NCBI RefSeq assembly: GCF_031195445.1
Contig: NZ_CP133480.1
Span: forward strand, 620,001 to 684,000
DNA: 64,000 nucleotides
Direction of reading: 5' to 3'
Origin: Acuticoccus sp. MNP-M23
Lineage (GTDB): Bacteria; Pseudomonadota; Alphaproteobacteria; Rhizobiales; Amorphaceae
Notes under the pieces: generated by a model
Seen by the model: only the letters and a program-made list of their open reading frames with translations
The model's database searches: none
Told to the model about the DNA's origin: nothing
Position numbers and translations under genes: made by a program
Part shown: one piece after another, positions 3,979 to 54,059 of the stretch
How the letters are laid out: each line of letters starts with the position of its first letter
Position numbering within the stretch: the stretch's first letter is position 1

Positions 3979-3997
3979 GCCGACCGTCCGCCTCTGC

Positions 3998-5167
3998 TCA
4001 GAGTTCGCGGGCGATGGCTTGTGCAAGGTCGGTCTGCTCCCACGAGAACCCGCCGTCCGCGTCCGGCTCGCGGCCGAAGTGGCCGTAGGCCGCGGTGCGG
4101 GCATAGATCGGGCGGTTGAGCTTCAGGGCCTCGCGGATGCCGCGGGGCGACAGATCGATCACGCGGCTGATGGCGGCCTCGATGGCATCGTCCGGTGCCT
4201 TGCCCGTGCCGTGGGTGTCCACGTAGATCGACAGCGGCTGCGACACGCCGATGGCGTAGGCCAGCTGGAGGGTGCAGCGGTTTGCGAGATCGGCCGCAAC
4301 CACGTTCTTGGCGACGTAACGTGCAGCATAGGCTGCCGAACGGTCCACCTTGGTGGGATCCTTGCCGGAGAAGGCGCCGCCGCCGTGGGGGGCTGCACCA
4401 CCGTAGGTGTCGACGATGATCTTGCGGCCCGTGAGGCCGGCGTCACCATCGGGTCCGCCAATCACGAAGGTGCCGGTGGGGTTCACGTACCAGACGGTCT
4501 CCGGCGTGATCCACTCGGCCGGCATCACTTCGCGGATGTAAGGCTCGACTACGGCGCGCACATCATCGGAGGTCATGGTCTCGTCGGTATGCTGGGTGGA
4601 CAGCACGACGGACGTGCAGGCCACGGGCATGCCGTTTTCGTAGCGCAGCGTCACCTGGCTCTTGGCGTCGGGGCCGAGCTTGGGTTCCACGCCGGACTTG
4701 CGCACCTCTGCCAGGCGACGAAGGATCGCGTGGCTGAAGTGGATCGGCGCCGGCATCAGTGCGTCGGTCTCGCGGCAGGCGTAGCCGAACATGATCCCCT
4801 GGTCGCCGGCACCTTCGTCCTTGTTGCCGGCGGCGTCGACGCCCTGCGCAATGTGGGCGGACTGAGCGTGGAGGTGCACTTCGACGTGGGCGTTCTTCCA
4901 GTGAAAGCCGTCCTGCTCGTAGCCGATATCGCGAATTGCGGCGCGCGCCAGCTCTTCCACCTTATCAGGCGTGATGGACGCGGGACCGCGGGTTTCCCCG
5001 GCGATCACAACGCGGTTGGTGGTTGCCAGCGTTTCGCAAGCGACACGGGCCTCCGGCATCTCAGCGAGAAAAGCGTCGACCACCTCGTCCGAAATCCGGT
5101 CGCAAACTTTGTCGGGATGTCCTTCGGACACCGATTCACTGGAGAAGAGGTAGGACTGTCGAGCCAA
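3998..5167 (-). CDS. metK: S-adenosylmethionine synthetase
   Basis: Makes S-adenosylmethionine from methionine and ATP. The 389-residue protein is full length. It shows [13 protein letters not shown] near the N-terminus, the [14 protein letters not shown] loop, and [16 protein letters not shown] in the C-terminal part, all diagnostic of bacterial MetK. The start is a TTG at 5167 preceded by [18 protein letters not shown] lines up with the usual N-terminus and no in-frame ATG is available. It is followed 19 bp downstream by the gnat-trmB fusion, whose methyltransferase half consumes SAM. A short dyad (5192-5208) lies in its leader. Confidence 0.97.
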
Positions 5168-27228: not shown

Positions 27229-28365
27229 CTACTTGAAGCGCGTGGTGAGGGTCGCGACCGTGGTGGCCGTGTTGATGATTGGCGACACGATCTCCAGGAA
27301 CTTGCCGAGCTGGGCAGACGGGTGGTTTGCCACGTAGAGGATGTCGTCGTCGCGCAGTTCGAACTGCTTCATCAGGAAGAAGGAGCGCGGGTCCTTGAGG
27401 TTGATCTGGTAGATCGTCGGCACCAGCGAGCCTTCGGCTGTGGTGACGGCGCGCTCGTCCAGCGCCTTGGCGATGAAGTCCGGCTCGAAGCGGAAGATGT
27501 AGACGCCCATGGCATCGGCCAGCTTGTCGTCCAGACCGCCGGCACGGGCAATCGCCTCGGCCAGGGTGACGCGGCGTGCCTCGAACTTGAACTCTTCCTT
27601 GGTGTTGGTGGCCCCCATGACGGTGAAGGTGCGCGTCACGTCGCTGACGAGAACGGTATCACCCGGACGAACCGAGACGTTGTCCTTGGGCACGTCGAAC
27701 AGGTCTTCGAGGTTGGCGGTGGCGACCGTGTTGCCGCGGCGCAGTGTCACCTGCGACTCGTAGGTCTCGCCGGTGGTGCCGCCAGCTGCCGCAATCAGAT
27801 CGAGGACACGAAGGCCCGCGACGCTGACCGGCTTGGGACCCGGATCGTTCACCTTGCCGAGCACGGTGGCGGAGTTGGCAAGGCTCTGGCCGACCAGCAC
27901 CTGCACCTGCGGCTGGATCGCCTTGTCGGCAAGCGATGCCTCAATGGTGCTGCGCAGCGCAGCCGGCGCAAGACCGGAGGCCCGGACCGCGCCCACATAG
28001 GGAACGAAGATGCGGCCGCTCTCGTCGATCACCGCTTCAATCTGTGTGGCCTTGGCCGTGGAGGAGGAGAACAGACCGTCCGCCCCCGCTTCAAAGATGT
28101 TGACCTTGACCTGGTCGCCGACCTGCAGCCGGATTGCCGTGCTGCCGTCCTGCACCTTGAAGAAGGACGAGAACCCCGGCGGCTGGTACTGGCCGGTGAT
28201 GTTGGTGACCTTCTCATCAACATCAATGACAAGGTGCGACGGTTTCTTGAAATTCGGGTTGTCGAGCGTGTCTATGTCTTTGCGCAGCGGGCCGCTTGAG
28301 GGCAACGCCGAACATCCGGCCAAGGCGATTGAGACGAGCACTGCCGCCGCACCTCTAAAAATCAT
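27229..28365 (-). CDS. Outer-membrane polysaccharide export lipoprotein (Wza/KpsD family)
   Basis: Forms the periplasm/outer-membrane channel for capsule or exopolysaccharide. The 378-residue protein has a lipoprotein signal with lipobox LAGC at Cys18. A poly-export domain follows (LQVGDQVKVNIFEAG; GRIFVPYVGAVRASGL) and then SLBB-type repeats (VGQSLANSATVLG, RPGDTVLVSD). It is the last gene of the minus-strand export group with the KpsE-like and KpsT-like genes. The polymerase and glycosyltransferase part of such a locus is not in the neighbourhood. Confidence 0.92.
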   Translation of the reverse strand: MIFRGAAAVLVSIALAGCSALPSSGPLRKDIDTLDNPNFKKPSHLVIDVDEKVTNITGQYQPPGFSSFFKVQDGSTAIRLQVGDQVKVNIFEAGADGLFSSSTAKATQIEAVIDESGRIFVPYVGAVRASGLAPAALRSTIEASLADKAIQPQVQVLVGQSLANSATVLGKVNDPGPKPVSVAGLRVLDLIAAAGGTTGETYESQVTLRRGNTVATANLEDLFDVPKDNVSVRPGDTVLVSDVTRTFTVMGATNTKEEFKFEARRVTLAEAIARAGGLDDKLADAMGVYIFRFEPDFIAKALDERAVTTAEGSLVPTIYQINLKDPRSFFLMKQFELRDDDILYVANHPSAQLGKFLEIVSPIINTATTVATLTTRFK

Positions 28366-28664: not shown

Positions 28665-30032
28665 TTAACTCACCCGGTCGCGAATTGCGGCGCCAACCAG
28701 CGCAATCATTCCCCAGATGAGGAAAAGCGAACCGAACACGATGGCTGTCCATCGGATCGCCTGGGGATAGGTGGCGTCTTCCGGTGCGCTACCGGACAGG
28801 AAGACGGCGAGGTAGCGCTGCTGCTTCATCGCATCCACACGCGCGCTTTCCAGCGAGGCGAGGCTCGACACATAGGCCCGCTCGGCAAACTCGCGCTCGG
28901 CGACAATCTCTTCGTAGTTGGACAGACGCTCGGTGAGGACGAGCTGGTCCGGTCCGTCGCTGGAGCCGGCATCGCGCACTGCCACGCTCAGCCGCTCCTT
29001 GGCGATCTGCCGCTGAAGCGAATCGATCTTGTTTTGCACATAGACGACGCGCGGCGAGTTCTTGCTCATGGTCGACAGCAGCGCGCTCAGTTCGGCCTCC
29101 GTGGAGGAAAGCTCCGCCTCAAGCGAGCCCACAAGACTCTGGCGCGATGCGGCGACCGCCGTCGGATCGATTTCCCGCTCGGAGCCGCGATAGGACGCCA
29201 CCTTCTTGCGGGCATCGGAATAACGCTTTTCCGAGATCTTCAGCTCGTTGCGGGCGGTTTGCAGGCTGTCCTCGCGGGCCCGAAGCGACAGGAAGTTGAT
29301 CAGATCCTCGGACTTTTCCAGCACCTTCTTGGTGATCGCCTCGGCATCGGCGGGGCGGAAGGCGCGGATCGTCATACTGATGATCCCGGTGTCGGTGTCG
29401 TATTCCACCGCGCTCATGGTCTGCCAATAGGAGACCAGCCCCTCGATGGTCGTTTCCGGGTCGAGGCGGTAGTAGGGGTCCGCCGAAGGGCGTGAATATA
29501 TTTCGAGGAAATTGGCTTCGGCGACCAGATGCTCCACCATTTCGCGGGACTCGATATAGTCCTGCAGGATGTAGCTGTCGGCGGTTTCGCTATCGCCGCC
29601 CGTGCCGCCGACACCGAACATGGCGCCAATGTCGATGGACGAGGTCGTCGCGCTTGCCCCGCGCACGGAAAACGCACTTTCCGTGGCGTACTGATCGGCC
29701 GCGACAAAGCCGTAAAAGAGTATCGTCAGAACCGTCGGCACCAGAACGAACACCACGAACAGCATCTTGACGAAGCGGCCGAACCGGGTGGTCGATTTCA
29801 GCATCTGCGGGCGGGGGGGCAACGAGAACTGCTCGGGCCGCAGCACAGCAGGCGGCGCGCCGGGGTTGGCCCGCGCTGTCGCAACGCGCGACGACCCTGC
29901 CGCCTCTTCGCTTTCGGCCGGCTGCGTTTCCTCCCGCTCGGTCACGGCACGGCGCCGCTCCAGGCGCGCCTTCCGCAAGGCCGCACGGCGTTCGTTCGCT
30001 TCGGATACTGGAACCAGGTTGTTGTCTGTCAT
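28665..30032 (-). CDS. Capsule polysaccharide export inner-membrane protein (KpsE/Wzz-like)
   Basis: A polysaccharide co-polymerase-like protein of 455 residues that bridges the inner-membrane exporter and the outer-membrane channel. There is a basic, disordered cytoplasmic N-terminus (about 80 residues) and a membrane helix at about 91-110. The periplasmic Wzz-like region carries long coiled coils (about 230-370, for example ELKISEKRYSDARKKVASYRG). A second membrane helix lies near the C-terminus (IVFGSLFLIWGMIALVGAA). It lies 6 bp downstream of the KpsT-like gene. Confidence 0.9.
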   Translation of the reverse strand: MTDNNLVPVSEANERRAALRKARLERRRAVTEREETQPAESEEAAGSSRVATARANPGAPPAVLRPEQFSLPPRPQMLKSTTRFGRFVKMLFVVFVLVPTVLTILFYGFVAADQYATESAFSVRGASATTSSIDIGAMFGVGGTGGDSETADSYILQDYIESREMVEHLVAEANFLEIYSRPSADPYYRLDPETTIEGLVSYWQTMSAVEYDTDTGIISMTIRAFRPADAEAITKKVLEKSEDLINFLSLRAREDSLQTARNELKISEKRYSDARKKVASYRGSEREIDPTAVAASRQSLVGSLEAELSSTEAELSALLSTMSKNSPRVVYVQNKIDSLQRQIAKERLSVAVRDAGSSDGPDQLVLTERLSNYEEIVAEREFAERAYVSSLASLESARVDAMKQQRYLAVFLSGSAPEDATYPQAIRWTAIVFGSLFLIWGMIALVGAAIRDRVS

Positions 30033-30038
30033 CGCGGG

Positions 30039-30902
30039 CTAAAAGAGAACTTCCCCGTTGTCTTCCTCGTCGAACGCGTCATCGGATTCGCCTTTACTGC
30101 TGACTGGGGCATTCTGGGGCGGCGGCAACGCTTCGAAGATCGTTGCGGCTTCCTCCACATCGTCGAAATGGTACAGACGGCCTTCATAAAGGATGTAAGC
30201 CAGATTCGCGTTCTCAGGAACCAGGCGCCTGCTATCAATCGACATGAGATAGTCTTTCGATAAAAGACGCGTCTTCAGTTCCTCGCCTCTCTCTTCGTCA
30301 AGCTTCAATGTGTGCGGCTTGAAGGGGCCATTGAACAGAAGCAGATCGAAGTCGCACAGGAGCGCGATGAGATAGCCATAGCGCCGCCGGGGGATCAGCT
30401 GCAAGGACTTGAACGGCTCCTTGAGAGCTTTGGGTTCCAGCTCCAGAAAACTCAGCGTGGCGGCAATAGTTGCCTCGGTGGACAAGCCGAGGACGTGGGA
30501 AATGAACAAGGTGTTGTCCCGCAGCGTCACCCGCGGGTCGGCAAAGGCCAGCGACCCCACCGGCCATGAAATGTTCGACTTGACGTGAACCTTCCCGCGA
30601 TCGGGCGCCTGACGCTGCTGGAGAATATCCATGATGGTCCCGCGGCCCGAGCCTTCGTGCCCGAACATCACCATCTTCCGCCCCTTCGGGAACCCGACCG
30701 AAAGGTTGTGGAAGACGTTGATGCGCTGGGTCTTGAGCTGCATCGTGACGTCGACCTTGTCGAGCGCGGCATGGCAGCGGTTGATGTGGATGCGGGTCTG
30801 CCGGGCAAGCAGGTCCTCTTCGGTGACGACACGTTGCTCGCTCGCACCGCCATCGCGGTCGCGCATCGCGTCCTCAAAGGAGACGACCGTCGCCTGACTC
30901 AT
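30039..30902 (-). CDS. KpsT-like ABC ATPase homologue with degenerate nucleotide-binding motifs
   Basis: A 287-residue protein placed where a capsule-export ATPase is expected. The ABC core aligns from about residue 60 (INVFHNLSVGFPKGRKMVMFG) to 245, but every catalytic motif is changed. The Walker A is GHEGSGRGT (81-89, Lys replaced by Arg and Ser/Thr by Gly). The signature region reads QLIPRRRYG instead of SSGM-type. The Walker B ends LLLFNG where DE is expected. The ATG at 30902 follows GGAGA. It is probably not an ATPase and may be a structural or regulatory partner of an intact exporter encoded elsewhere. No mutation-like frameshift is present, so it appears maintained. Confidence 0.75.
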   Translation of the reverse strand: MSQATVVSFEDAMRDRDGGASEQRVVTEEDLLARQTRIHINRCHAALDKVDVTMQLKTQRINVFHNLSVGFPKGRKMVMFGHEGSGRGTIMDILQQRQAPDRGKVHVKSNISWPVGSLAFADPRVTLRDNTLFISHVLGLSTEATIAATLSFLELEPKALKEPFKSLQLIPRRRYGYLIALLCDFDLLLFNGPFKPHTLKLDEERGEELKTRLLSKDYLMSIDSRRLVPENANLAYILYEGRLYHFDDVEEAATIFEALPPPQNAPVSSKGESDDAFDEEDNGEVLF

Positions 30903-31222
30903 ACTGGTCTCCGCAACCTTCGCGATGCAACAAGCCCGCGAACTGTGCACTGCACAAAGTGTACCACACTTTGTTTCTTGGACACTGCTTCGCCTGAGCG
31001 CAAGCTGAACATCCTAAAGCCGAGAATGGTCCATGCCCGCCTCAAACCGCGCTGCTGCCAGCGCAGGACAGCGCCCGGCGGGCCAGCCTGATGTCAAATA
31101 TCGGTTCAGCAACAGCGGGCGCAAGCCCTGACGCGGTCTGTCCGGCACAAGCAGGTTTCGTGCAAATGGATCAATGGGGGCCGCGGGAAATGCCCTACGC
31201 CCGCTTCTGGCCGCCCGCAAGC
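30903..31222. other. Intergenic region upstream of capsule export genes (320 bp)
   Basis: Holds an inverted repeat (30954-30974) about 50 bp upstream of the KpsT-like start. No supported gene; small open frames here have no ribosome site or recognisable product. The 3' end of panE borders it on the right, so any promoter here would serve the capsule genes. Confidence 0.6.
30954..30974. promoter_or_regulatory. Perfect 9-bp inverted repeat, candidate operator
   Basis: ACAAAGTGT, 3-nt spacer, ACACTTTGT, located 52-72 bp upstream of the KpsT-like ATG. The symmetry and length fit a dimeric repressor or activator site. No T-run follows, which argues against a terminator. Confidence 0.5.
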
Positions 31223-39642: not shown

Positions 39643-40926
39643 ATGGATGTCATTCGGGATCTGGTTGAGCACATCAAGGTGCCGGCGATGGCGCCGGTGC
39701 GGCAGATTTTCGACGACACCCACATCGCCGACCTCGAAGCCCACCTTAGCCGCGCCTTCACCGAGGCCAACCTTGCCGCCCGCATCAAACCCGGCGAGAC
39801 CGTGGCGCTCGGCGTCGGGAGCCGCGGCGTTGCCGAACTCCCGACCCTCGTGCGCCTCACGGTCGAGGCGCTGAAGGCGGCGGGCGCAGAACCCTTCATC
39901 GTGCCGGCCATGGGCAGCCATGGCGGTGCGTCCGCGGAAGGGCAGACGAAAATGCTGGCCTCCCTCGGCGTGACCGAAGAGAGCGCCGGCTGCCCGATCC
40001 GCTCATCCATGGAAACGGTCACCGTCGGCCAGCTCCCCAGCGGCCTTGCCGCGCTGATGGACGCCGAGGCGATGGGGGCCGACCACATCGCCTTCATCAA
40101 CCGCGTCAAGCCGCACACCAGCTTCTCGGGCACCATCGAGAGCGGCCTTTGCAAGATGATGGCAATCGGCCTTGCCAACCAGAAGGGCGCGGACAGCTGC
40201 CACCAGGAAGGCTTCGGCCGGATGGCGCACAACGTGGTGGAGATGGCGAAGGTGAAGCTCGCCAACGCGCCGATCCTGTTCGGCCTTGCAACCGTCGAGA
40301 ATGGCTACGACCGGATCGCCATGGCCGAAGTGGTGTTCGCCGAGGACATTCTGGCGCGCGAACCGGCCCTGCTTGCCGAAGCGCGATCGAAAATGCCGCG
40401 CGTGCTGTTCGACCCGCTGGACGTTCTGGTGGTCGGCCAGATGGGAAAGGATTTTTCCGGCTCCGGCATGGATCCCAACATCACCGGTCGCCCCGGCACG
40501 CCCTATCTTGATCTGCGCCAGACCACCGGCAAGCTGGTTGTGCTGAACATCAGTCAACGGTCGGGCGGCAACGCCACGGGCCTTGGCCTTGCGGACTTCT
40601 GCACCAAGGCCCTTTACGACCAGATCGACTACCGCGCGTTCTACACCAACCACCTGACGTCGACCGTCACCACGGGCTCGAAAATCCCGATGATCATGGC
40701 GACCGACAAGATGGCCGTGCAGGGTGCGGTTAAGACCTGCAACGCGGCAGACCCGCTGGCCCCCCGCATCGCCTACATCCCCAACACGCTGCAGCTGGAG
40801 CATGTTTTCGTCAGTGAGGCGCTGCTGGCCGAGGCCCGCTCGCGGGACGATGTGGAAGCGCTGACGGATGCAACCGACTGGCCGTTTGACGCGGAAGGCA
40901 CATCCACCCTCTCTTTCAAGCACTGA
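39643..40926 (+). CDS. LarA-family nickel-pincer-type racemase/epimerase (DUF2088)
   Basis: A 427-residue protein of the lactate racemase LarA superfamily. Residues corresponding to the nickel-pincer nucleotide ligands seem to be present: His93 (GSHGG), His158 (KPHTS), Lys171 (SGLCKMM) and His187 (DSCHQ). The spacing Lys171-His187 equals the 16 residues between Lys184 and His200 of the Lactobacillus enzyme. Start ATG 39643 follows GGGAGGAACGG. The substrate is unknown; the superfamily includes racemases and epimerases of several 2-hydroxy acids. Cofactor genes larC, larE and larB lie at 54.1-56.6 kb. It ends 48 bp before smpB. Confidence 0.82.
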   Translation: MDVIRDLVEHIKVPAMAPVRQIFDDTHIADLEAHLSRAFTEANLAARIKPGETVALGVGSRGVAELPTLVRLTVEALKAAGAEPFIVPAMGSHGGASAEGQTKMLASLGVTEESAGCPIRSSMETVTVGQLPSGLAALMDAEAMGADHIAFINRVKPHTSFSGTIESGLCKMMAIGLANQKGADSCHQEGFGRMAHNVVEMAKVKLANAPILFGLATVENGYDRIAMAEVVFAEDILAREPALLAEARSKMPRVLFDPLDVLVVGQMGKDFSGSGMDPNITGRPGTPYLDLRQTTGKLVVLNISQRSGGNATGLGLADFCTKALYDQIDYRAFYTNHLTSTVTTGSKIPMIMATDKMAVQGAVKTCNAADPLAPRIAYIPNTLQLEHVFVSEALLAEARSRDDVEALTDATDWPFDAEGTSTLSFKH

Positions 40927-41579: not shown

Positions 41580-42971
41580 CTACCGTGCCAGACTGTTGGC
41601 GAGCAGCTTCAGCCCTTCGCCTTCGGAGGCGGCCAGCTTGAGGCAGGTGGCCGTGAGCTCGACCGCGCGCTCGATGTCCTCGAACGTGTGCGTCGAGTTG
41701 ATGAAAAACCGCAGGCGCGCGGCCTTCTCCGGCACGGCCGGATAGATGATCGGCTGCACGTTGAGCCCGGCTTCGGACAGGCGGTGCGACACGACGGCGG
41801 CCAGAATGCTGTCCCCGATGATGATCGGCACCACGGCAAGGCCTTCGCTGGTGCCGGTGTCGAGCCCGGCCGCTTTCGCCGTCTTCAGGAAATGCTGGCC
41901 GTTTTCCACCAGTTTGGTCACTCGCTCCGGCTCTTCGTCCAGAATCTTGAGCGCAGCCAGGGCAGCTGCGGTGGATGCCGGCGGCAGGCCCACCGAGAAC
42001 ACGAAGCCCGGCGCCGTCGCCTTCAGATATTCCACCAGCGAGGACGACCCGGCAATGAAGCCGCCGCAGGACGACAGCGTCTTCGACAGCGTGCCCATCC
42101 AGATTTCAACCGCGTTGGGGTCCACCCCGTCGCGCTCGGCGAGGCCACGGCCGGTTTCACCCACAACGCCCAGCGCGTGGGCTTCATCCACCAGCAGCCA
42201 CGCATCGTAGCGGTTTTTGAGGCGCACCAGCTTGGCAAGGGGCGGCGAGTCCCCGTCCATGGAGTAAAGGCCCTCCACCGCAATCAGCACCCGGTCGAAG
42301 CTCGAGCGGCTCTTGCTCAGGAGCTCTTCCAGATGGTCCAGATCGTTGTGGCGGAAGGTGAGACGGGTCGCGCCCGACAGGCGCACGCCCTCCACAATGG
42401 AGTTGTGGATGAAGGCATCGGTGAGGACGAGATCGTCCTTTTTCAGAAGGTGCCCGATGGTCGTGACGTTGGTGGCATGGCCGGACACCATCACCACGGC
42501 ATCTTCCACGCCGAGATAATGGGCGATGGCCGCCTCGAATTCCCGGTGGAACGGGCGCTCGCCGGACACGACGCGGCTCGCCGAGACGGAGGTGCCGAAG
42601 GTGTCGGTCGCTGCCTTGGCGGCTTCGGTGACGCGCGGGTCGCCGTTGAGGCCGCAATAATCGTACGACGAGAAGTTGATGTACTCGCGACCGTCGATCT
42701 GCGTATGGGCGGCGGCCCGGACTTCGTGGGAGCGGAAGAACGGGCTTTCGATCTTCAGGATGTCGGCGGCAGCGCGCTGGATCTTCAGCTGGCGCACTTC
42801 ATCGAGGGTGCCGAAATCGAACGCGGTGGACGCGGTCCGCCGTTCGGTTTCCTTCGGCACCATCCGGTCGAACTTGCGCTCCAGACCGGCCTTGCGGGAG
42901 GCGCGACCAGCGGCCAGGAGCTGATCCTTGGCCGCCGCCTTCAACCCACCGATGCCACCGCGTTTCGTCAT
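41580..42971 (-). CDS. Alpha-oxoamine synthase (RkpG/8-amino-7-oxononanoate synthase-like)
   Basis: A 463-residue fold-type I PLP enzyme that condenses an acyl thioester with an amino acid and releases CO2. PLP lysine is Lys297 in GTLSKTLSSCGG; Asp262 and His265 are in VDEAHALG; SSYDYCGLNGDPRV is the family's substrate region. About 75 residues precede the core, longer than typical 390-residue biotin enzymes. It overlaps the PKS stop (ATGA), so the two are translationally coupled. The same pairing occurs as RkpA-RkpG in Sinorhizobium K-antigen synthesis. The predicted job is to off-load the PKS acyl chain as an amino-ketone. The amino acid used is unknown. Confidence 0.88.
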   Translation of the reverse strand: MTKRGGIGGLKAAAKDQLLAAGRASRKAGLERKFDRMVPKETERRTASTAFDFGTLDEVRQLKIQRAAADILKIESPFFRSHEVRAAAHTQIDGREYINFSSYDYCGLNGDPRVTEAAKAATDTFGTSVSASRVVSGERPFHREFEAAIAHYLGVEDAVVMVSGHATNVTTIGHLLKKDDLVLTDAFIHNSIVEGVRLSGATRLTFRHNDLDHLEELLSKSRSSFDRVLIAVEGLYSMDGDSPPLAKLVRLKNRYDAWLLVDEAHALGVVGETGRGLAERDGVDPNAVEIWMGTLSKTLSSCGGFIAGSSSLVEYLKATAPGFVFSVGLPPASTAAALAALKILDEEPERVTKLVENGQHFLKTAKAAGLDTGTSEGLAVVPIIIGDSILAAVVSHRLSEAGLNVQPIIYPAVPEKAARLRFFINSTHTFEDIERAVELTATCLKLAASEGEGLKLLANSLAR

Positions 42972-45900
42972 GAAATGATCTTCCTCATGCCGCTCGTCTT
43001 CTGAAGAACGGCCGCTTCGAGCGCCTCGATGTCGGTGTCGCCCTTTTCGACGTTTTCAGAGAGGTGGCGACTTGCCACAGCCTCTGAATCCTCGTCCATC
43101 ACCGCATCGTCGCCACGGCCGCGCTGGACCACCTTCTTGGCAAGGTCGGTCAGCGTTGCGCCGGCCGCCAGCGACATCAGCGGAATGTCGATTCCGAGCC
43201 GCTGCTCGGCCGCCATGCGCAGTTCCACACCCATCAGCGAATCCATGCCGAGCGCGGTGAGCGGCTTGTGCACGTCGATCTCGCCGGTGGGCAGCTTGAG
43301 GATCCGCGAAATTTCGCCGGTGAGGAGGCGCGTCACTTCGCCAAGCGCTTCCTGATCGGTGAGGCCGGCGAGGCGTTCGGACAGGTTGATCGCGCCGCCG
43401 CCTTCGCCTGATTCGGTCGGCTCCTCGGCAAGGTCCTCGAACGAGGGGCTTTTCACCAGCTCCAGATCCTTGCGCGCCGCAGCCCAGTCCACCTTGCCGA
43501 TGAGACGGACCGCAGGGCCTTCGGTCATCGCGCCGTCTTCGATCAGCGCCTTCAGACCGGCAAGGCCTTCGGCGGAGCTGACCAGATGGCGCCCGAGCTT
43601 GCGCTGCAACAGCTCGTTGGCGCTGGAATCACGGGCCAGGACGCCAACGTCGCCAATGCCGCCCCAGGAGATGGCGAGTGCAGGCTTGCCCTCGGCCCGG
43701 CGACGCCGCGCGATGGCTTCCAGGAAGGCATTGGCGGCCACGTAATTGGCCTGCCCCGGATTGCCGAGTTGCACGGTGATGGAGGAGTAGACCACAAACA
43801 GGTCGTGCGGCACGTCGCGCGTGGCCGCCTCCAGCGAGATAACACCGGCAACTTTGGGTGTGATTGGCGTGGCGAAGCGGTCTTCGTCCAGGGACGTGAT
43901 CAGCGCGTCGTCCAGCACCATGGCCATCTGGAACACGCCGCCCAGCGGGCGCTCGGCGGCAATCTCGGCCACCAGCGCAGCCGTCGCGGCCTTGTCAGTC
44001 ACGTCCAGCGTTGCAAGCGTGATGCTGACACCGGCCGCGCGGTGCGCCTCAATGGCCGCCGCAATCGTCTCGTCCTTGACGCCGGAGCGGCTGGCGAGAA
44101 CCAGATGCCGGGCACCTTCCGCAATCAGCCACTCTGCGGTGGCAAAGCCGAAGCCGGACGTACCGCCCACCAGCAGATACGCCTTGTCCGGGGCGACAAC
44201 GGCGCGCGGCTCCGGCCGCGGTTCGGGCGGCAGGGGCGCCTCGACAATGATCTTGCCGATATGGCCAGCCGACTGCATCAGGCGGAACGCATCGCGCACG
44301 CCGTCCGCCGCGAACATGCGGTAGGGCAGCGGGGTCAGCTCGCCGGTGCCGAAGAGGTCGATCACCGTCTTCAGGATGCGCTTGGCGGACTTCGGCTTGT
44401 GCTTCATCAGCTGGTCGGCGTCGATGCCGAAATAGCTGAGGTTGCGGCGGAAGGGGCGCAGGCCGAGCTTTGTGTCGGCGTAGAAGTCGCGCTTGCCGAG
44501 CTCCAGGAACCGGCCAAACGGCTTCAGCGCCCCGACGGACCGCTCCATCGCCTCGCCGGCCAGCGAATTGAGCACCACATCGACGCCTTCGCCGCCCGTG
44601 GCGGCACGCGCCTCGTCGGCAAAGGTCAGGCCGCGGGAATCGAACACTTCGTCGGCGCCAAGGCGGGTCAGCAGCGCCCGCTTTTCGGTGGTTCCTGCGG
44701 TGGCAAACACGGTTGCGCCGCGCCACTTGGCGATCTGCAGTGCCGCAAGGCCGACGCCGCCAGCGCCGCCGTGGATGAGGACGGTGTCGCCCTCCTCCAG
44801 CTGGCCGAGCTCCACCAGCGCGTAATACGCCGTCAGGAACGCGACCGGGACGCTGGCTGTGGCCGCCGGGCCAAGGTCGGCCGGCCGGCGGGCAACGGCA
44901 GACGCGGTGACGGTGACATGGGAGGCAAAACAGGCCGGTGCGAAGGCGATGACAGGGTCGCCCACCGCAAGGTCGGTCACGTCAGCGCCGATGGCTTCGA
45001 CCACGCCGGCGCATTCCATCCCAAGCGTCGCGCCGGCAAAGCCGTCCTGCAACGCCTCGTGCGGAAGAAGGCCCAGCGTCCACATCACATCGCGGAAGTT
45101 GAGACCGACCGCTTCCACGCGCAGGCGAACGTCGCCAGCGCCCAGCGCCGGGTTTTTCGCGGTGCGCCAGACCAGATGATCGATGGAGCCACGGTGCGGG
45201 ATCGCAAGCGTGGTCATGTCGCCACCGGCAGGGCCCTGCGGCGCGGTCGGCCGGTAGCGCACGGCGCCGCGATGGTCGCTGGTCAGCACGATCTCGCGTT
45301 CTGCGTTCAGCTCTGCAAGCTCCGCGCGCAACCGGACCGCGGCTTCGCTCGGCTCGAAGCTCTGCGCCACATCCACCAGCCGCAGCGAAAGGTGCGGGAA
45401 CTCGTTGATGGCAACGCGGCCGAAGGCGCCAATGGCGGCTGCCACGGGGCGCACCTCGTTGGCACCCGGCACCTGCGCACCGAACGTCACAAGGGTGACG
45501 TTGCGGGCCTCAGTGCCCAGACCTTCGAGGAAACGGCTGATCTCGGTGAGCCGGCTTGCAAGTTTGGCCGGGTCGTTCTCGTGGATGGCGACCAGACAAT
45601 CGCCCTCCGGTCCGGAGGCCAGATCCAGCACCGGCGGCTGCTCTTCCTGCATGGCGGACAGCGCGTCGCAGACGCGGCGGGCAATCTCGCCCACGGCATG
45701 GAGCGACGGAAGCTCCGGCCAGTTCGTCCGCTCTGCCGCAGCCTCACGGCCGGCGGACCACAGGAGCGCATCGCATTCGGCGGAGGCGAGTGCCCCAACA
45801 CCGCGCACCTGAAGGCCGATGCCTTCGATGGCGGTGCGCCACTCATCGGCGTCGATCAGGCGGCCGACCGGCGATTCGGGATCAGCAGATCCCGCCCACC

Positions 45901-48900
45901 ATTCCGTGCTGAGGCCTGCCAGCGCGTCGGTAAATAGTGCAGGCCCGTAGGCCGCGCCCAGAACCGTTCCGCCCGGTTTCAGGAGCTCCACCAGGTCGGC
46001 GAGCAGCGGCGCGCCAAGCGCCGGCGCAACCACGATCGCGTCAAACGGATGATGCTCCGCAGCAAGCGTGCCGAACGGCGCCACTTCGACACCGGTCACC
46101 CGTTCGAACACGAGGCTGAGGCGCTCGGCGTCGGTCCGGTCGCGGTCGGTGATGACGAGGCGGACGCGCTCGGGGTCGATCTTGCTGGCAAGGCCACGCA
46201 GGAAGGTGGTGTTGGCCGCCCCGATCACCAGGACGCGGAGCGCGGCGTCGTTGCCGGCAAACAGCGCGTCCAGCGTTTCGGACAAGGCGCCAAACAGCGG
46301 CGCGGAGAACGGCGCATCGGTCAGAAGCTGCGCCATCAAAGGGTCAGCGGCGGGCAGCGTCTCGTCCAGCCCGTTGCGAATGGCATTCTCGAAGAAGGTG
46401 GGGAGCGCGGCCAGAAGTGCGGTTTCCGCCACCCGGTCCGGATGCTCGGCCGAAAGAAGCCCGACCACGTCGGCCACGGCCAGACCCGCGCCGGTGACCT
46501 GCCAGCGACCGTCCTTTTCCTCGGCCTGCTCGGACGCTTCCAGCGCCAGCAAAAGCCGGGTGACAAGCGGCACTGCAGTGCGGTTCAGCTTGCCTTTTTC
46601 GCAAAGGTCGTTGAGGCGGGCGGGCTCGGACAGGAGGGCGCCCAGCGCCTCTTCGGCAGCCGCCTGCACGCCGGCTTCCATGAGCAGCGCGGTTTCCGAA
46701 GGCTCGGCCCCATCCGCGGCCAGAAGGTGGGCGGGCAGCGCCGGCACCGCCGACGCAGGCTCCAGCGCACGGCTGATCCGCTTGATATAGGGGGCGGCAA
46801 AAATCGTCTCGGCGCCAGCGTGGCGGTTGAGCGGCACCGCCTGGAAGCGCACGGCCTCGATGACGGCGACAATCCCGCCCGCGGCATCGCGCAGCGTGAA
46901 GTCGGCCTCGACAATCCCCTCGGTGGGCATCCGCACCGAAAGGTCGGCTTCCACGGGCGCGGCAGCGTTCTGTGCCATCACCAGCCGGCCCACACGGATC
47001 GGCAGAACCGCCGTGTCGCCGCCTTCGATCTTGCCCGCAAGAAAGGCGAACAGGGCGTGGAAGCAGCTGTCGAACAGGGTCGGGTCGAGGACGAAGCCGA
47101 ACTTGGCCGTCGCCGGATCGGCGGATGCGAGGCGCACATGGGCGCGGCTGTCATCGATCAGCGACACCGAGTTGGCACGGCGGAACACCGGGCCGTACGG
47201 CAGGCCGAACGCCCGCGTCATTTCGTAAAGCCGAGCCGCGGGAACGATGGCGGCATCCGCCGGAACCTCGAACGGCAGGGGATTCTGCGGCGCGGCCGGT
47301 GCCTTGCCCACAGTTGCCTTCACATGCGGCATGTAGGGGTCGGTGGACAGCCGCACCCGGCTTTCGATGAGGAAGGTATGCGGCGCAATCTCGCGGGTTC
47401 GCACCTCGCGTTCGGTGGCATCGTCCAGCACCAGCGGGGCGTAGATGTCGAGATCGCGCACCTCGAGGGCCGCGTCCTTGTACAGCGCACGACCGGCGGC
47501 AAGCAGCATCTCGGTGAAACCCGCGGCGGGGAAGACGACGGCTTCCTCCACCTTGTGGTCCACGAGGAAGGGGAGGCGCCTGGCATCGTGAGACACCAGC
47601 CAGACCGACTGGTCCAGGTCGTGCCGGTCGCCGAGGAGAACGTGTGCGCGCCGGTCCAGCAGGCGCACGCGCTCGCTGGATTCGGCCGTGCGATAGTAGG
47701 CGTGCTGCCACGGGTAGTTCGGCAGAACCGACGCCGATGCCGCCTTGGCGCCGAACAGGATGTCCTCGTCCACCGAGGCGCCGTTGGCCAGCGCACCGCG
47801 GATGACTTCGGACACCGGCTGGGTTGCGGCGTCATTTTGCTGGAACGACGACAGGACCACTGCCTTGAGGTCCGAGGTCCGGGCGGCGTCGTTCAGATAA
47901 CCGGTCAGCACCGGGCGCGGACCAATTTCGAGGAACAGGCGGTGTTCACCCAGGAGCGACTTGATCGCTGCACTGAACAGCACGGGCTGGCGTACGTTAT
48001 CCCACCAGTAGGTGGCCCCGAGGTCGCGGCCATCCACCAGGGCGCCGGTGACGCTGGAGACCATCGGCAGCGTCGATGTCTGGGGCTCGATGCTGGCGAG
48101 CGAGTTGAGCAGCGGATCGCGGATCGGCTCCACGAGAGCGCAGTGGAACGGATAGTCGAGGTCGAGCCGCTTCAGCGCCCAGCGCTTCTTGCGCGCTGCC
48201 TTGCCAAATTCGGCAAGCGCGCCGACCGGACCGGAAATGGTGACAGACCGCGAGGAATTTTCTGCCGCCACTTCGAGGCCGGCATATGGCGCGATGGCGG
48301 CACGCGCCTCGTCCGGCGGCAGGAGCAGCGCAGCCATGCCGCCAAGGTGCCGTGTGACCTCCTGGTGCGTGGAGCGGGCGTGGATGACCCGCACCGCATC
48401 GGCCAGGCTGAGCGCGCCTGCGGCCCAGGCCGCGGCCACCTCGCCCACCGAATGGCCAACGACAGCCGACGGGGTGAGGCCCTTTTTCTGGAGCGATTCG
48501 GTGAGCGCCACCTGCAGCGCGAAAAGGAGCGGCTGCGCGATCTCGGTGCGCTCGATCTCGCTCTCAAGATCTTCGGAGAACAGCATCGTCACGAGAGACC
48601 AGCCGGCCACCGACATGAACAGGCGGTCCGCCCGGTCGAACGACAGGCGGAAATCGGTCTCGTTCTGGTAGGCGGTCCGGCCCATGCCGGCCCACTGCGA
48701 GCCGTTGCCGGAATAGACGAACACCGGCGCCTGCGCTGCGGTCAGCGCTTCGCCCAGAACGGCGCGCTCATGCTTTTCGCCGGCAGCCACGGCGGTGAGC
48801 GCGGCGCCCACCTCATCGGTGGTGCCCGGCGCGATGACGGCGCGGAACGGAAGCCGCTGGCGACCGTGGGCCGCGGCATTGGCGTAAAGTGCGGTGTCAC

Positions 48901-50302
48901 CGGCCGCGGCCAGCGCATCGGCGCTGCGGGCAGCCAGCTGGCGCAGCGCAGGCTCGCTGGCGGCGCTGATGACGATGGGGGCCGCGCGGTGAGTCAGCGG
49001 CAAGGGAGCGACCGGCTCGCCGTCTTCCATCACCACGTGCGCGTTGGCGCCGCCGAAGCCGAAGGAGTTGATGCCCGCGGCCCGCGGCGTGCCGTTGCGC
49101 GCCAGCGGCGTCGCCTCGCTGGCCACCTTGAGGTTCAGCGCCTCGAACCGGATGTCCGGGTTGGGCTTGTCGAAATGGAGGTTGGCGGGCAGACAATTGT
49201 TGGCAAGCGCCATCTGCGCCTTCAGGACGCCGACGAGGCCGGACGCCGGCTCCAGATGGCCGAAATTGGTCTTGGATGAGCCGATCAGCAGGGGGTCGGT
49301 GCGGCGGGTCGCAATCACCCGGCCGATGGCCTCTGCCTCGATCGGGTCGCCGACGCGGGTGCCAGTGCCATGGGCTTCGACGAACGCCATCTGGTTCGGG
49401 TCCACCTCGAAGCGCTCGTAGACCTCTTCCAGAAGTGCGGCCTGCGCATCCATCGAAGGCAGCGAGAGGCCGGCGGTGCGCCCGTCCGCGTTGGTGCCGG
49501 AGCCGACGAAGCGGGCCAGGATGGGGTCGCCATTGGCACGGGCTGCGGTATCTGCGCGCAGCACCAGCGTCACCGCCCCTTCGGAGCGGACGTAGCCGTC
49601 GGCACCGGCATCGAACGCACGGCAAAGGCCGTTTTCCGACAGCATGGACGCGCGCGAGAACCCGGCGAACGGCACGGGATGGAACAGCATCGAGACGCCG
49701 CCCACGAGCGCGGTCTCGACACGGCCGTTCTGGATGTCTTCGATGGCGCGGTGGAGCGCGATCAGCGAGGACGAGCACGCCGTGTCGATGACGTAGGACG
49801 GCCCGCGCAGATCGAACGCGTAGGAGAGGCGGTTGGCGATGATCGACAGGGTGTTGCCGGTCATCGACTGGGGTTCGATCACCGCCATGTCGAGCTGGGC
49901 GTTGGTGCCGTAGTCCAGCGAGGAAGCACCGACGTAGACGCCAACCTTTTCGCCCGCCAGCGACGAGGGTGGGATGCCGGCATTCTCCAGCGCCTCGACG
50001 GAAACTTCCAGAATGACGCGCTGCTGCGGGTCCATCGCAGCCGCTTCGCGCGGGGAAATGCCGAAATAGCCGGGGTCGAAATCGAATGGCCGGGCCAGCT
50101 GGCCGGCAGCGAAAGTCACCGCACGGCCGGGCGCCGTCCGGTCGGGATGGAGGTGTTGCTGGGTTCCGAAACGGTCTTCGTCGATCTGCGTGACGACACA
50201 GCGGCCACTGCGCAGGACATCCCAGAACTCATCGAGACCGTTCGCAGACGGCAAACGGCAGGCCGCGCCCACCAGGGCCACCTTCGAAACGGACACGGTC
50301 AT
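42968..50302 (-). CDS. Reducing type I polyketide synthase, single module (RkpA-like)
   Basis: About 2,444 residues from the ATG at 50302, which follows AAGGA (numbers below count from a TTG 2 codons earlier). Domains: KS (about 6-430; Cys178 in DTACSSSL, His313, His351), AT (about 525-830; Ser620 in GHSVGE), DH (about 885-1165; His918, with Glu where Gly is usual), a degenerate methyltransferase-like region (about 1350-1520; no glycine-rich SAM loop), ER (about 1705-2022; GGAGGVGLAALQ), KR (about 2043-2270; VGGTSGFG, Tyr2189), ACP (about 2320-2395; Ser2357 in GMDSLMG). There is no thioesterase. The complete reducing loop predicts a saturated acyl chain, passed to the coupled oxoamine synthase. 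Confidence 0.93.
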   Translation of the reverse strand: MTVSVSKVALVGAACRLPSANGLDEFWDVLRSGRCVVTQIDEDRFGTQQHLHPDRTAPGRAVTFAAGQLARPFDFDPGYFGISPREAAAMDPQQRVILEVSVEALENAGIPPSSLAGEKVGVYVGASSLDYGTNAQLDMAVIEPQSMTGNTLSIIANRLSYAFDLRGPSYVIDTACSSSLIALHRAIEDIQNGRVETALVGGVSMLFHPVPFAGFSRASMLSENGLCRAFDAGADGYVRSEGAVTLVLRADTAARANGDPILARFVGSGTNADGRTAGLSLPSMDAQAALLEEVYERFEVDPNQMAFVEAHGTGTRVGDPIEAEAIGRVIATRRTDPLLIGSSKTNFGHLEPASGLVGVLKAQMALANNCLPANLHFDKPNPDIRFEALNLKVASEATPLARNGTPRAAGINSFGFGGANAHVVMEDGEPVAPLPLTHRAAPIVISAASEPALRQLAARSADALAAAGDTALYANAAAHGRQRLPFRAVIAPGTTDEVGAALTAVAAGEKHERAVLGEALTAAQAPVFVYSGNGSQWAGMGRTAYQNETDFRLSFDRADRLFMSVAGWSLVTMLFSEDLESEIERTEIAQPLLFALQVALTESLQKKGLTPSAVVGHSVGEVAAAWAAGALSLADAVRVIHARSTHQEVTRHLGGMAALLLPPDEARAAIAPYAGLEVAAENSSRSVTISGPVGALAEFGKAARKKRWALKRLDLDYPFHCALVEPIRDPLLNSLASIEPQTSTLPMVSSVTGALVDGRDLGATYWWDNVRQPVLFSAAIKSLLGEHRLFLEIGPRPVLTGYLNDAARTSDLKAVVLSSFQQNDAATQPVSEVIRGALANGASVDEDILFGAKAASASVLPNYPWQHAYYRTAESSERVRLLDRRAHVLLGDRHDLDQSVWLVSHDARRLPFLVDHKVEEAVVFPAAGFTEMLLAAGRALYKDAALEVRDLDIYAPLVLDDATEREVRTREIAPHTFLIESRVRLSTDPYMPHVKATVGKAPAAPQNPLPFEVPADAAIVPAARLYEMTRAFGLPYGPVFRRANSVSLIDDSRAHVRLASADPATAKFGFVLDPTLFDSCFHALFAFLAGKIEGGDTAVLPIRVGRLVMAQNAAAPVEADLSVRMPTEGIVEADFTLRDAAGGIVAVIEAVRFQAVPLNRHAGAETIFAAPYIKRISRALEPASAVPALPAHLLAADGAEPSETALLMEAGVQAAAEEALGALLSEPARLNDLCEKGKLNRTAVPLVTRLLLALEASEQAEEKDGRWQVTGAGLAVADVVGLLSAEHPDRVAETALLAALPTFFENAIRNGLDETLPAADPLMAQLLTDAPFSAPLFGALSETLDALFAGNDAALRVLVIGAANTTFLRGLASKIDPERVRLVITDRDRTDAERLSLVFERVTGVEVAPFGTLAAEHHPFDAIVVAPALGAPLLADLVELLKPGGTVLGAAYGPALFTDALAGLSTEWWAGSADPESPVGRLIDADEWRTAIEGIGLQVRGVGALASAECDALLWSAGREAAAERTNWPELPSLHAVGEIARRVCDALSAMQEEQPPVLDLASGPEGDCLVAIHENDPAKLASRLTEISRFLEGLGTEARNVTLVTFGAQVPGANEVRPVAAAIGAFGRVAINEFPHLSLRLVDVAQSFEPSEAAVRLRAELAELNAEREIVLTSDHRGAVRYRPTAPQGPAGGDMTTLAIPHRGSIDHLVWRTAKNPALGAGDVRLRVEAVGLNFRDVMWTLGLLPHEALQDGFAGATLGMECAGVVEAIGADVTDLAVGDPVIAFAPACFASHVTVTASAVARRPADLGPAATASVPVAFLTAYYALVELGQLEEGDTVLIHGGAGGVGLAALQIAKWRGATVFATAGTTEKRALLTRLGADEVFDSRGLTFADEARAATGGEGVDVVLNSLAGEAMERSVGALKPFGRFLELGKRDFYADTKLGLRPFRRNLSYFGIDADQLMKHKPKSAKRILKTVIDLFGTGELTPLPYRMFAADGVRDAFRLMQSAGHIGKIIVEAPLPPEPRPEPRAVVAPDKAYLLVGGTSGFGFATAEWLIAEGARHLVLASRSGVKDETIAAAIEAHRAAGVSITLATLDVTDKAATAALVAEIAAERPLGGVFQMAMVLDDALITSLDEDRFATPITPKVAGVISLEAATRDVPHDLFVVYSSITVQLGNPGQANYVAANAFLEAIARRRRAEGKPALAISWGGIGDVGVLARDSSANELLQRKLGRHLVSSAEGLAGLKALIEDGAMTEGPAVRLIGKVDWAAARKDLELVKSPSFEDLAEEPTESGEGGGAINLSERLAGLTDQEALGEVTRLLTGEISRILKLPTGEIDVHKPLTALGMDSLMGVELRMAAEQRLGIDIPLMSLAAGATLTDLAKKVVQRGRGDDAVMDEDSEAVASRHLSENVEKGDTDIEALEAAVLQKTSGMRKIIS

Positions 50303-50486
50303 ACGCAAGATCCTTCAGTCCGACCGACAGGACAATTGGCGGGGGCACTGCGGGGCTGCCCCCCGCTTCTTGCCGGACGCTCTACCCGTTCCTTCACACT
50401 CAGGTCAGGCAAAGCCAAAAACGCATAGGCGATTGCTCTACAAGCTGCAAGAACAGGAATAATTCTGAAACTTCTCAGCGTACCGG

Positions 50487-51404
50487 TCATGCCACACTCC
50501 GGGCACGGGCAAGGTCGTCCGCCGTCGGCATGACGGCACCATGGTGGCCGCAGGTAAACGCCGCAGCAAGCTGTGCAAAATCAAGAAGATCACCGAGGGA
50601 GTCTTCGCTGAGGGCGCTAAGGGCGCTCTTGCTGAGGGTGCCGGTCTGCTGAAGGCGGAACAGCAGCGCCGCCATGAAGGCATCGCCTGCCCCCACAGGG
50701 TCGCGCACCGCGGTCGCGCAGGATTTGCGCCAGACCCGGTGCTGCGCCGTCATCGCCAGAGCACCGCCCTCCGCCATCGTCAGGATGGCAATGGCCGCCC
50801 CGTCATCCACACGCGCCTTCATATATTTTTCCGCGTCCCCCTCGCCGATCAATTCTATGTCGGCCACGCTAGCCTTAACGACGCCTGAAAATGCAGCAAT
50901 TTTGCGCAATCTTCCACAATAAGCCGCACGATCCGTAATAGAAGGTGCCCGCGCGTTGATATCGAGGCTCACCAGAGGCGCCAAACGGGCGGCCTCTGCG
51001 ATATGCCCGCCCACCGGGTCCTGCGCCAGAACGGCCGAGCCGACGTGCAGACACGTGGCACCGGCAGGCAGGGGCGGCAGTGCCGTGTCGTGCATCACCC
51101 GGTCAGGGTCGGCGATATTGTAGCGGGGCTCGTCGCCCGACATGTCGACGATGGCTGTGGGGGTGGCCCGGTCCGCCCGGCGCACGGCAGAGCAGTCCAC
51201 GCCGGCTCCACAAAGGGATGCGAAAAAGCGCTGACCGAGGGTGTCGTGCGACAGCTCCCAGAGATAGCCCGCTTTGCCGCCCAGTTTCGCGATCCCGACG
51301 GCGACGGTGTAGTGCGAACCGCCCAGCACGGGGCGATACACAATATCGTCGCCCTCCCCCTCGGGCATCAGATCCACCAGCGATTCACCACATGCAACAA
51401 TCAC
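50487..51404 (-). CDS. PfkB-family carbohydrate kinase (fructokinase-like)
   Basis: A 305-residue ribokinase-fold sugar kinase. The catalytic Asp241 is in DPVGAGDAFMAALL, and the substrate lid contains VLGGSHYTVAVGIAKLGG. Thr replaces the usual Asn in this Gly-Gly loop. The GTG at 51404 follows GGAG. It lies 184 bp upstream of the PKS on the same strand and may be co-transcribed. The sugar is not identifiable from sequence; fructokinase is the nearest guess. Confidence 0.85.
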   Translation of the reverse strand: MIVACGESLVDLMPEGEGDDIVYRPVLGGSHYTVAVGIAKLGGKAGYLWELSHDTLGQRFFASLCGAGVDCSAVRRADRATPTAIVDMSGDEPRYNIADPDRVMHDTALPPLPAGATCLHVGSAVLAQDPVGGHIAEAARLAPLVSLDINARAPSITDRAAYCGRLRKIAAFSGVVKASVADIELIGEGDAEKYMKARVDDGAAIAILTMAEGGALAMTAQHRVWRKSCATAVRDPVGAGDAFMAALLFRLQQTGTLSKSALSALSEDSLGDLLDFAQLAAAFTCGHHGAVMPTADDLARARSVA

Positions 51405-51871
51405 AAGGACGCGAAACTCCAAAAGCCCGGCACTCTTCCATCCACACAACGTGACTGCCGAATCCGGCATACCGTTTCTGGAAGCTTCTTCTGCTAGTTC
51501 GATTTGAGGCGCACGTCATCCGGTCATGTGTACACGAGTCCCGCGTCGCGACCTCGATCGGCGCAGCATTATCTCCTGCGGCCCGACTTTGATCGCCTGA
51601 CGGCGACGGCGCACCTAACAATATATTTACACTCAAAGATTGCATCTAGTTCAAAATCACGACCAAGAATGCAATCTCAGCGTAAATTCGTCTTCCATAT
51701 TTAGCGTTCGGCTTGGCATTCCTTTCCCACCCGGAGCGAGGCCGGGACGAAAGCTGGCGCTGTCGGAACGTCTGCGACCGTAACAGGATGCAACACCAAT
51801 TGAGCGCACAAGTGCCGGTTTTCGCGGCTTGCTAACTTATTAGAACAATCGTCCGTGCTATTTGCCTCGGT
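51405..51871. other. Divergent intergenic control region (467 bp)
   Basis: Separates the minus-strand kinase/PKS/oxoamine synthase group from the plus-strand Gfo/Idh-DegT pair. It is visibly AT-richer than its surroundings between about 51600 and 51710. It contains an interrupted inverted repeat (51625-51687). No gene is supported. It probably holds promoters for both directions. Confidence 0.7.
51625..51687. promoter_or_regulatory. Long interrupted inverted repeat, candidate operator
   Basis: Inner arms AGATTGCAT (51637-51645) and ATGCAATCT (51669-51677) and outer arms ATTTAC (51625-51630) and GTAAAT (51682-51687) are arranged symmetrically in an AT-rich stretch. Unequal gaps (6 and 4 nt) separate inner and outer arms. 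It fits either a two-site operator or an RNA hairpin. Confidence 0.45.
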
Positions 51872-53980: not shown

Positions 53981-54059
53981 CGGATCCCTTGAGCCGGCGG
54001 GCGGAAAAGGCCACACTCCGCCCGCGCGGCCACCCCCGGCCGCGACGGCCGGGCGACCC

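Follow-up and report, generated by a model that had tools for sequence, protein, structure and literature searches.

What does a polyketide synthase (PKS) coupled to an alpha-oxoamine synthase (AOS) make in the alphaproteobacterium Acuticoccus sp. MNP-M23, and what is its product used for? The two genes occupy positions 41,580 to 50,302 of the 64,000-nucleotide stretch analyzed here (contig NZ_CP133480.1, positions 620,001 to 684,000), which is referred to below as the window. An earlier reading of the sequence alone had proposed that the pair joins a long saturated acyl chain to an amino acid, possibly as the lipid anchor of an exported capsule. The comparative analysis described below indicates that the pair probably makes a sphingoid lipid that serves as the terminus of a capsule exported by an ABC transporter. 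Domains, active sites, gene coupling, co-occurrence and operon structure were read from sequence, and the sphinganine and phosphoglycerol-sphinganine products are those of an ortholog; from these we infer serine as the substrate here, the acceptor role of the lipid, and every step in Acuticoccus. The features of the pair are as follows.

42968..50302, minus strand: iterative highly reducing type I PKS of the RkpA/SgaA type, 2444 aa
48836..50284, minus strand: ketosynthase (KS) domain with C-terminal extension (Pfam PF00109/PF02801/PF16197; motifs DTACSSS, EAHGTGT, NFGH)
47831..48724, minus strand: acyltransferase (AT) domain, GHSVGE, with YPFH at the specificity site (Pfam, alignment)
46832..47644, minus strand: dehydratase (DH) domain with its catalytic His and Asp (Pfam, alignment)
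45239..46828, minus strand: linker between DH and ER, C-methyltransferase-like with a degenerate S-adenosylmethionine (SAM) motif, a pseudo-methyltransferase (profile comparison; low conservation)
44243..45142, minus strand: enoylreductase (ER) domain (Pfam, alignment)
43658..44182, minus strand: ketoreductase (KR) domain (Pfam, alignment)
43136..43324, minus strand: acyl carrier protein (ACP) domain, Ser in GMDSL (Pfam PP-binding, alignment)
42971..43132, minus strand: tail behind the ACP, a candidate docking peptide whose His motif is conserved (alignment)
42968..42971, minus strand: ATGA overlap of PKS stop and AOS start
41580..42971, minus strand: pyridoxal phosphate-dependent AOS of the RkpG/SgaB type, 463 aa, Lys297

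The sequence-only reading had described the PKS as KS-AT-DH-ER-KR-ACP without a thioesterase, and Pfam agrees on both the domain order (KS, AT, DH, ER, KR, PP-binding) and the lack of a thioesterase domain; the DH-ER linker was not part of that description. The PKS reading frame spans 42968..50308 on the minus strand, with alternative starts at 50308 (TTG) and 50302 (ATG). All 36 PKSs that were aligned, chosen out of 72 near-complete ones, share its catalytic residues (KS Cys/His/His, AT Ser/His, DH His/Asp, KR Ser/Tyr/Asn, ACP Ser), and from the YPFH motif we take the AT domain to be specific for malonyl units. The linker profile resembles the C-methyltransferase domains of the PKSs CurJ (E 7e-48) and LovB, and likewise a region of animal fatty acid synthase. 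However, a GxGxG SAM motif was not visible in the consensus of 29 linker sequences. Because this motif is not conserved, an active C-methyltransferase was rejected; the linker is taken to be a pseudo-methyltransferase, and a straight saturated chain is expected. Beyond the ACP, 52 of 72 PKS tails carry the strict motif [LIVM][AV]xxH, as against about 7% expected by shuffling for what are related, not independent, sequences, and this tail with its conserved histidine may be a docking peptide for the AOS. The overlap of PKS stop (42968-42970) and AOS start (ATG, 42969-42971) within one ATGA is as the sequence-only reading had it, and the Lys297 it pointed out is unchanged in 19 of 19 aligned AOS sequences.

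The coupling extends far beyond this species. Among the best 80 AOS loci in named genomes, a PKS match was found in 79 (L136 holds a fragment only) and lies directly upstream on the same strand in 77, the exceptions being L132, L141 and L147. Nearly all of these loci come from Alpha-, Beta- and Gammaproteobacteria. Judged by gene order, the coupling is not a chance feature. PKS and AOS are even fused in one frame in a proteobacterium (G380; L168, 8832-16001, minus strand) and on a plasmid of Planktothrix agardhii (L177, 2518-10158, plus strand), which supports a direct hand-over of the chain from PKS to AOS. In Burkholderiaceae, a gene for an LpxC-type deacetylase sits between the two (L145, 8995-9912; L175, 12988-13914; L176, 12887-13801). 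The window AOS is 57% identical to its Pseudomonas putida ortholog over residues 60-441, 53.5% identical to that of Sinorhizobium meliloti, and 74-85% identical to the AOS of three further genomes of the genus. With a mono-modular PKS, an orthologous AOS directly downstream and a catalytic lysine, the pair belongs to the SgaAB/RkpA-RkpG kind.

This membership bears on the product, which the sequence-only reading had called undefined for the bacterial pair. That statement no longer holds: passages of PMC12134224 report that SgaAB of Pseudomonas fluorescens MYb115 makes C24, C26 and C28 sphinganines, which are lost in sgaA and sgaB deletions, that SgaB has a near-exclusive preference for L-serine when compared with alanine and glycine, and that species heavier by 154 Da were assigned as phosphoglycerol-sphinganines. 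The same source proposes the short-chain dehydrogenase/reductase (SDR) SgaC as the ketosphinganine reductase and counts 6101 clusters homologous to SgaAB. With the SgaAB product known, the amino-ketone becomes an intermediate wherever a ketoreductase is present. Orthology to SgaAB was judged from the common architecture and from the Pseudomonas loci L152 and L174, not from the MYb115 sequences themselves.

The evidence for a capsule role begins at the level of whole genomes. The order was sampled by 199 genomes. Of these, 44 contain AOS orthologs (E<1e-120; weaker matches are other family members), 54 contain strong KpsS-type matches (PF05159, E<1e-40) and 38 contain both. KpsS thus occurs in 38 of 44 genomes with the AOS versus 16 of 155 without it (Fisher 8e-22). 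As related genomes are not independent, the genus counts are fairer, and these give 16 of 21 versus 10 of 78 (p 5e-8). One genome, G090, is included among the 44 though neither of its AOS genes adjoins a PKS. Where both genes are present, they lie within 20 kb in 19 genomes, farther apart on the same contig in 7, and on other contigs in 12. PF05159 was likewise found in 28 of 32 named genomes with the PKS-AOS pair, chosen from among 80 loci. These and the following co-occurrence tables were compiled by hand with thresholds chosen after the lists had been viewed, hence the two settings given below for the phylum. For AOS, phosphoglycerol transferase and SDR in the order and for the first two of these in the phylum, no more than 3 to 12 candidates were scored in each genome, which makes absences there soft; all candidates were scored for SDR and PF00884 in the window genome, for PF05159 in the named genomes, and, save for two genomes, for the phosphoglycerol transferase in the latter.

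Operons make the connection more specific. The best 80 named loci include KpsS in 32, an SDR in 28, KpsC in 19, KpsD in 25 and at least one of these Kps proteins in 39; a further family was found in 11. The four of these 11 that were checked are PF00884 proteins, and the closest solved relatives of the family are the phosphoglycerol transferase GacH (E 2.4e-33) and lipoteichoic acid primase/synthase; it is called PGT below. The gene order is PKS-AOS-SDR-PGT-KpsS in both Rhizobium lusitanum (L134) and S. meliloti Ak57 (L173). In the latter, export genes precede the PKS, the PGT was located by profile (436 bits) where no gene is listed, and the AOS start again overlaps the PKS stop. Read in this way, S. 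meliloti rkpA-G-H-I-J would encode a PKS, a serine acyltransferase, a reductase, a phosphoglycerol transferase and a Kdo (3-deoxy-D-manno-oct-2-ulosonic acid) transferase, the rkp names having been matched by gene order to passages in the literature and not taken from the sequence record. Other lineages reshuffle the same parts: PKS-AOS-KpsS-SDR-PGT in Methylococcaceae (L113), SDR-PGT-PKS-AOS in L149, KpsS-SDR-PGT-PKS-LpxC-AOS in Paraburkholderia (L176), PGT-KpsS-PKS-AOS-SDR with KpsE, T and M in Shinella (L178), and SDR-PGT-PKS-LpxC-AOS-KpsD-KpsM-KpsT-KpsE in Caballeronia (L175), where KpsS was not found in the 29 kb examined. One Kps locus (L052, genome G086, contig C102) holds PGT, SDR and AOS with no PKS match beside the AOS.

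On a Pseudomonas plasmid (L174), PKS-AOS is followed on the opposite strand by PhyH-KpsC-GNAT-PGT-SDR-KpsS-KpsC, with KpsF and KdsB nearby. The phytanoyl-CoA-dioxygenase-like (PhyH) and GNAT proteins of the Pseudomonas clusters (L174, 13216-14259 and 16375-16977; L152, 12581-13624 and 15740-16318) could hydroxylate and N-acylate the sphingoid base. In MYb115, the spacing of locus tags from SgaB (RS19800) to SgaC (RS19775) leaves room for four genes if the usual tag spacing holds, and the plasmid has exactly four in this interval (PhyH, KpsC, GNAT, PGT). By this comparison, the MYb115 interval is predicted to hold PhyH, KpsC, GNAT and LTA-synthase-like genes.

PGT and SDR also tend to keep company with capsule genes. 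PGT lies within 5 kb of KpsS in all 12 genomes of the order with a strong match (E<1e-90); weaker relatives (E 1e-17 to 1e-48) occur in 17 further genomes. Among the 32 named PKS-AOS genomes it is present in 18, and within 5 kb of KpsS in 15 of the 17 that have both. Across the phylum (n=398), strict thresholds (E<1e-95 for PGT, 13 genomes; E<1e-160 for AOS, 17 genomes) leave 11 shared genomes, so that the AOS accompanies PGT in 11 of 13 cases versus 6 of 385 without it (p 1e-15); looser ones (1e-60 and 1e-120; 21 and 23 genomes) leave 12 shared, or 12 of 21 versus 11 of 377. As for the SDR, 23 of 41 strong matches in the order lie within 5 kb of KpsS, 15 of these 23 having no AOS ortholog within 5 kb, and another 3 of the 41 are near the AOS only (SDR matches down to E 2.6e-64, KpsS matches down to E 4e-67).

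These observations can be combined into a pathway. The PKS would iterate on its single ACP to build a very long saturated acyl chain, which the AOS would take from the ACP and join by decarboxylative condensation to an amino acid (L-serine being the most likely one) to give 3-ketosphinganine. A reductase would convert this to sphinganine. In many lineages, the GacH/LtaS-like RkpI would then add phosphoglycerol to the sphingoid base, producing a mimic of lyso-phosphatidylglycerol (lyso-PG) on which KpsS (RkpJ) would place the first Kdo. According to passages of PMC7694667, KpsS transfers the first Kdo onto (lyso-)PG, after which KpsC extends it, and in passages of PMC11041684 KpsMT is modelled with a Kdo-PG glycolipid whose phosphate is likely coordinated by arginines. 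Sphinganine-phosphoglycerol is a one-chain lipid with the head group of lyso-PG and could therefore replace it as the KpsS acceptor. In the lineage of the window, which appears to lack a phosphoglycerol transferase, two KpsS paralogs would be kept instead. The full proposal is that rkp-type, and probably also wcb-type, proteobacterial Kdo capsules are built on a polyketide-derived sphinganine-1-phosphoglycerol and not on a glycerophospholipid, with the rkpA-G-H-I-J enzymes assigned as above, and that in the window lineage a second KpsS paralog replaces the phosphoglycerol step by glycosylating the sphingoid base by another route. We give this joint proposal about an even chance of being correct as a whole.

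The idea of a lipid anchor for rkp is decades old: the rkp-1 genes have already been published as genes for a lipid carrier or anchor of K-antigen (passages in PMC4881576 and PMC3557214), and the capsular polysaccharide of S. meliloti 1021 is described in passages of PMC5539429 as made of beta-(2-7)-linked Kdo and borne by a lipid anchor. The SgaAB sphingolipids were published in 2025 with no mention of rkp, wcb, capsule, K-antigen or Sinorhizobium in the main text (PMC12134224), and sphingolipids, rhizobia and polyketides are absent from the text of a 2025 review of capsule attachment (PMC12220298). Searches of open-licence literature, one of them covering papers from 2013 on and others taken as far as the top titles listed, did not meet a sphingoid assignment for the capsule lipid, which is weak evidence of absence. 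What is new here is the argument, drawn from comparison of genomes, that ABC-exported Kdo capsules have the product of this pair as their lipid terminus; the advance lies in the chemistry and the enzyme assignments.

How well does the window genome itself fit? Genes for export proteins lie at 27.2-31.0 kb, 11 kb from the AOS.

27229..28365, minus strand: KpsD/OPX-like polysaccharide export protein (Poly_export/SLBB)
28665..30032, minus strand: KpsE-type inner-membrane export protein (TIGR01010, 238 bits, cut-off 437.5)
30039..30950, minus strand: KpsT-like ATPase with deviant Walker A GHEGSGRGT

The Walker A motif of the ATPase has Arg for Lys, as does the KpsT of L108 (GSGRS). Of 120 relatives' loci, that of Breoghania (L080) gives the best match to both KpsD and KpsE; in it, KpsD-E-T adjoin PKS-AOS-SDR-KpsS-KpsS. 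PF05159 matches in the window genome number two, both single-module; the one checked scores 226 bits against an NCBIfam KpsS cut-off of 600, which the P. putida KpsS misses as well. Two copies agree with a wider pattern in raw genome counts that ignore kinship: all 27 genomes with PGT have one KpsS, and of 34 without PGT, 24 have two and 10 have one. A frame counted here as KpsS if it held one, and not two, nearly complete PF05159 matches (E<1e-54); a 690-aa KpsC frame in G204, genomes without KpsS, G086, and the duplicates G221, G222, G224, G225 and G230 were excluded. In a KpsS tree of 50 rows, the duplicate that Roseibium and Stappia have next to PKS-AOS splits into two clades, and the two copies from the window genome fall one into each, on long branches; the copies near the AOS in L088 and L096 fall outside both. 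Since the two copies of the window genome split between the duplicate clades, these scattered KpsS genes probably belong to the same system as PKS-AOS.

Several findings weigh against a sphingoid capsule terminus, in Acuticoccus or in general. The two KpsS genes are 0.9 and 2.7 Mb from the pair, and their Pfam-named neighbours (10 checked, 4 unnamed) are HlyD, ABC and others but not Kps. No two-module KpsC was found by the PF05159 search of the genome, nor was KpsM found within the window, to which that search was confined. There is no SDR beside the pair and no dedicated SDR in the genome (best E 1.9e-35; 94 candidates scored). No PGT was listed at E 1e-15 for the window genome or four congeners (7 candidates scored each, for the window genome 7 of 19), and none of the 7 PF00884 proteins of the window genome matches the PGT profile, which two controls match. 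The AOS is under the cut-off of every NCBIfam model listed, that for serine palmitoyltransferase (SPT) included. More widely, 6 of the 44 AOS-bearing genomes of the order and 4 of the 32 named ones have no strong KpsS, and 15 of the 41 strong SDR matches are near neither KpsS nor the AOS. The Rhizobiaceae SDR in the RkpH position scores just 119-140 bits against the SDR profile, and the one checked matched generic SDR models only, below cut-off, which makes the ketosphinganine-reductase role the weakest of the rkp assignments. Two genomes (G510, G534) have a strong PGT beside KpsS and KpsM-T-E-D with no AOS ortholog at E 1e-120, and among 8 further genomes of the phylum with PGT relatives (E 1e-60 to 1e-92) an AOS was listed in one. 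PGT thus seems to be a gene of the capsule route first and not bound to the AOS, and a strict rule that PGT needs PKS-AOS was rejected. Finally, the S. meliloti anchor is named a phospholipid in one passage and one cited title in the literature.

Other accounts of the pair have to be weighed against these data. The view that the AOS belongs to primary metabolism, as a paralog of BioF or KBL with no tie to the PKS, is very improbable: bioF does give its top NCBIfam score (363 bits), but the cut-off is 426, the KBL score is also below its cut-off, and the closest solved relative is the SPT of Sphingobacterium (321 bits), ahead of KBL-type chains (at best 298-304) and E. coli BioF (264). The ATGA overlap, the upstream PKS in nearly every locus and the fusions argue in the same direction, and the BioF/KBL assignment was rejected on the curated cut-offs. 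The AOS was also rejected as a canonical bacterial SPT, its score against the curated model being below cut-off. A more serious proposal is that the sphingolipids of the pair stay free, serving as secondary metabolites or in the membrane, with capsule genes as mere neighbours. The SgaAB lipids were indeed found free and treated as secondary metabolites (passages of PMC12134224), 41 of the best 80 named loci have no KpsS, KpsC or KpsD match, a number of them ending soon after the AOS, and the Planktothrix fusion has no Kps matches in the 19 kb examined. We nevertheless regard this as unlikely given the association with KpsS at the genome level and in operons of three classes, and because rkpA is among the genes affecting the S. 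meliloti 1021 capsular polysaccharide (part of PMC5539429).

The gaps in the window genome lie behind the remaining alternative, in which the Acuticoccus product is another amino-ketone or amino-alcohol lipid (made from alanine or glycine, for example, or left unreduced) whose use may not be in a capsule. The genome has no dedicated SDR, although one adjoins the AOS in its congeners G064 and G131; none was seen in a third, G159 (12 of 116 candidates scored). All five genus members, moreover, are without a listed PGT. On the other side, the AOS is of the same family as the P. putida ortholog, any of 37 SDR matches at E 1e-20 could serve as the reductase, and both KpsS paralogs have been kept. 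This alternative is doubtful but deserves some weight. A sphingoid capsule terminus remains the account we favor. From the sequence-only proposal, the long chain, its release by the AOS toward a sphingoid base and the anchor role have all gained support; the end product, with neither dedicated SDR nor PGT, is less certain in Acuticoccus than in S. meliloti or Pseudomonas.

One more gene lies immediately upstream of the PKS, on the same strand.

50487-51470, minus strand: PfkB-type sugar kinase

It was considered as a part of the system and rejected, being present in only 2 of the 120 relatives' loci (Acuticoccus L073, and L074); this check rests on the 80 named loci, as other loci often end inside the PKS. 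The pair is also flanked by a nickel-pincer-cofactor-dependent isomerase (NF052515, above cut-off; 39643-40926, plus strand) and, on the other side, by a LarC-like nickel insertion protein (53742-55199, plus strand). Elsewhere in the window, a reading frame at 2860-4104 (minus strand) combines GNAT acetyltransferase and TrmB-like methyltransferase domains.

Joining SgaAB to rkp yields a testable reaction for each of rkpA-G-H-I-J. If the proposal is true, a sphingolipid-type terminus is to be expected for many capsules of symbiotic and environmental bacteria, and the phosphoglycerol-sphinganines of P. fluorescens would be precursors or remnants of capsule primers.

Among known systems, PfSgaA/PfSgaB (with SgaC) shares with the window pair an iterative PKS followed by an AOS, and for it sphinganines, L-serine use and phosphoglycerol-sphinganine are proven (passages of PMC12134224); it differs in that its products have been termed secondary metabolites, and in the window species no dedicated SDR or PGT was found. 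Canonical bacterial SPT, as in Caulobacter and Sphingomonas, performs the same AOS chemistry on an acyl-ACP, but there a free ACP (AcpR) is charged by an acyl-ACP synthetase (AasR) and not by a PKS (passages of PMC9386255). The E. coli group 2 capsule (lyso-PG-(Kdo)n, made by KpsS/KpsC/KpsMTED) resembles the window genome in its KpsS-type and KpsD/E/T-like genes, whereas it has a glycerolipid terminus and no PKS or AOS, in contrast to the sphingoid terminus proposed here. In fungal PKS and AOS systems of the fumonisin type, the AOS likewise releases a reduced polyketide. The fumonisin product is a methyl-branched toxin made with alanine. The closest parallel among capsule systems is rkp-1 of S. 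meliloti, which has an orthologous PKS and AOS with the same overlap of PKS stop and AOS start; there, the SDR, PGT and KpsS genes that are absent or located elsewhere in the window genome directly follow the pair.

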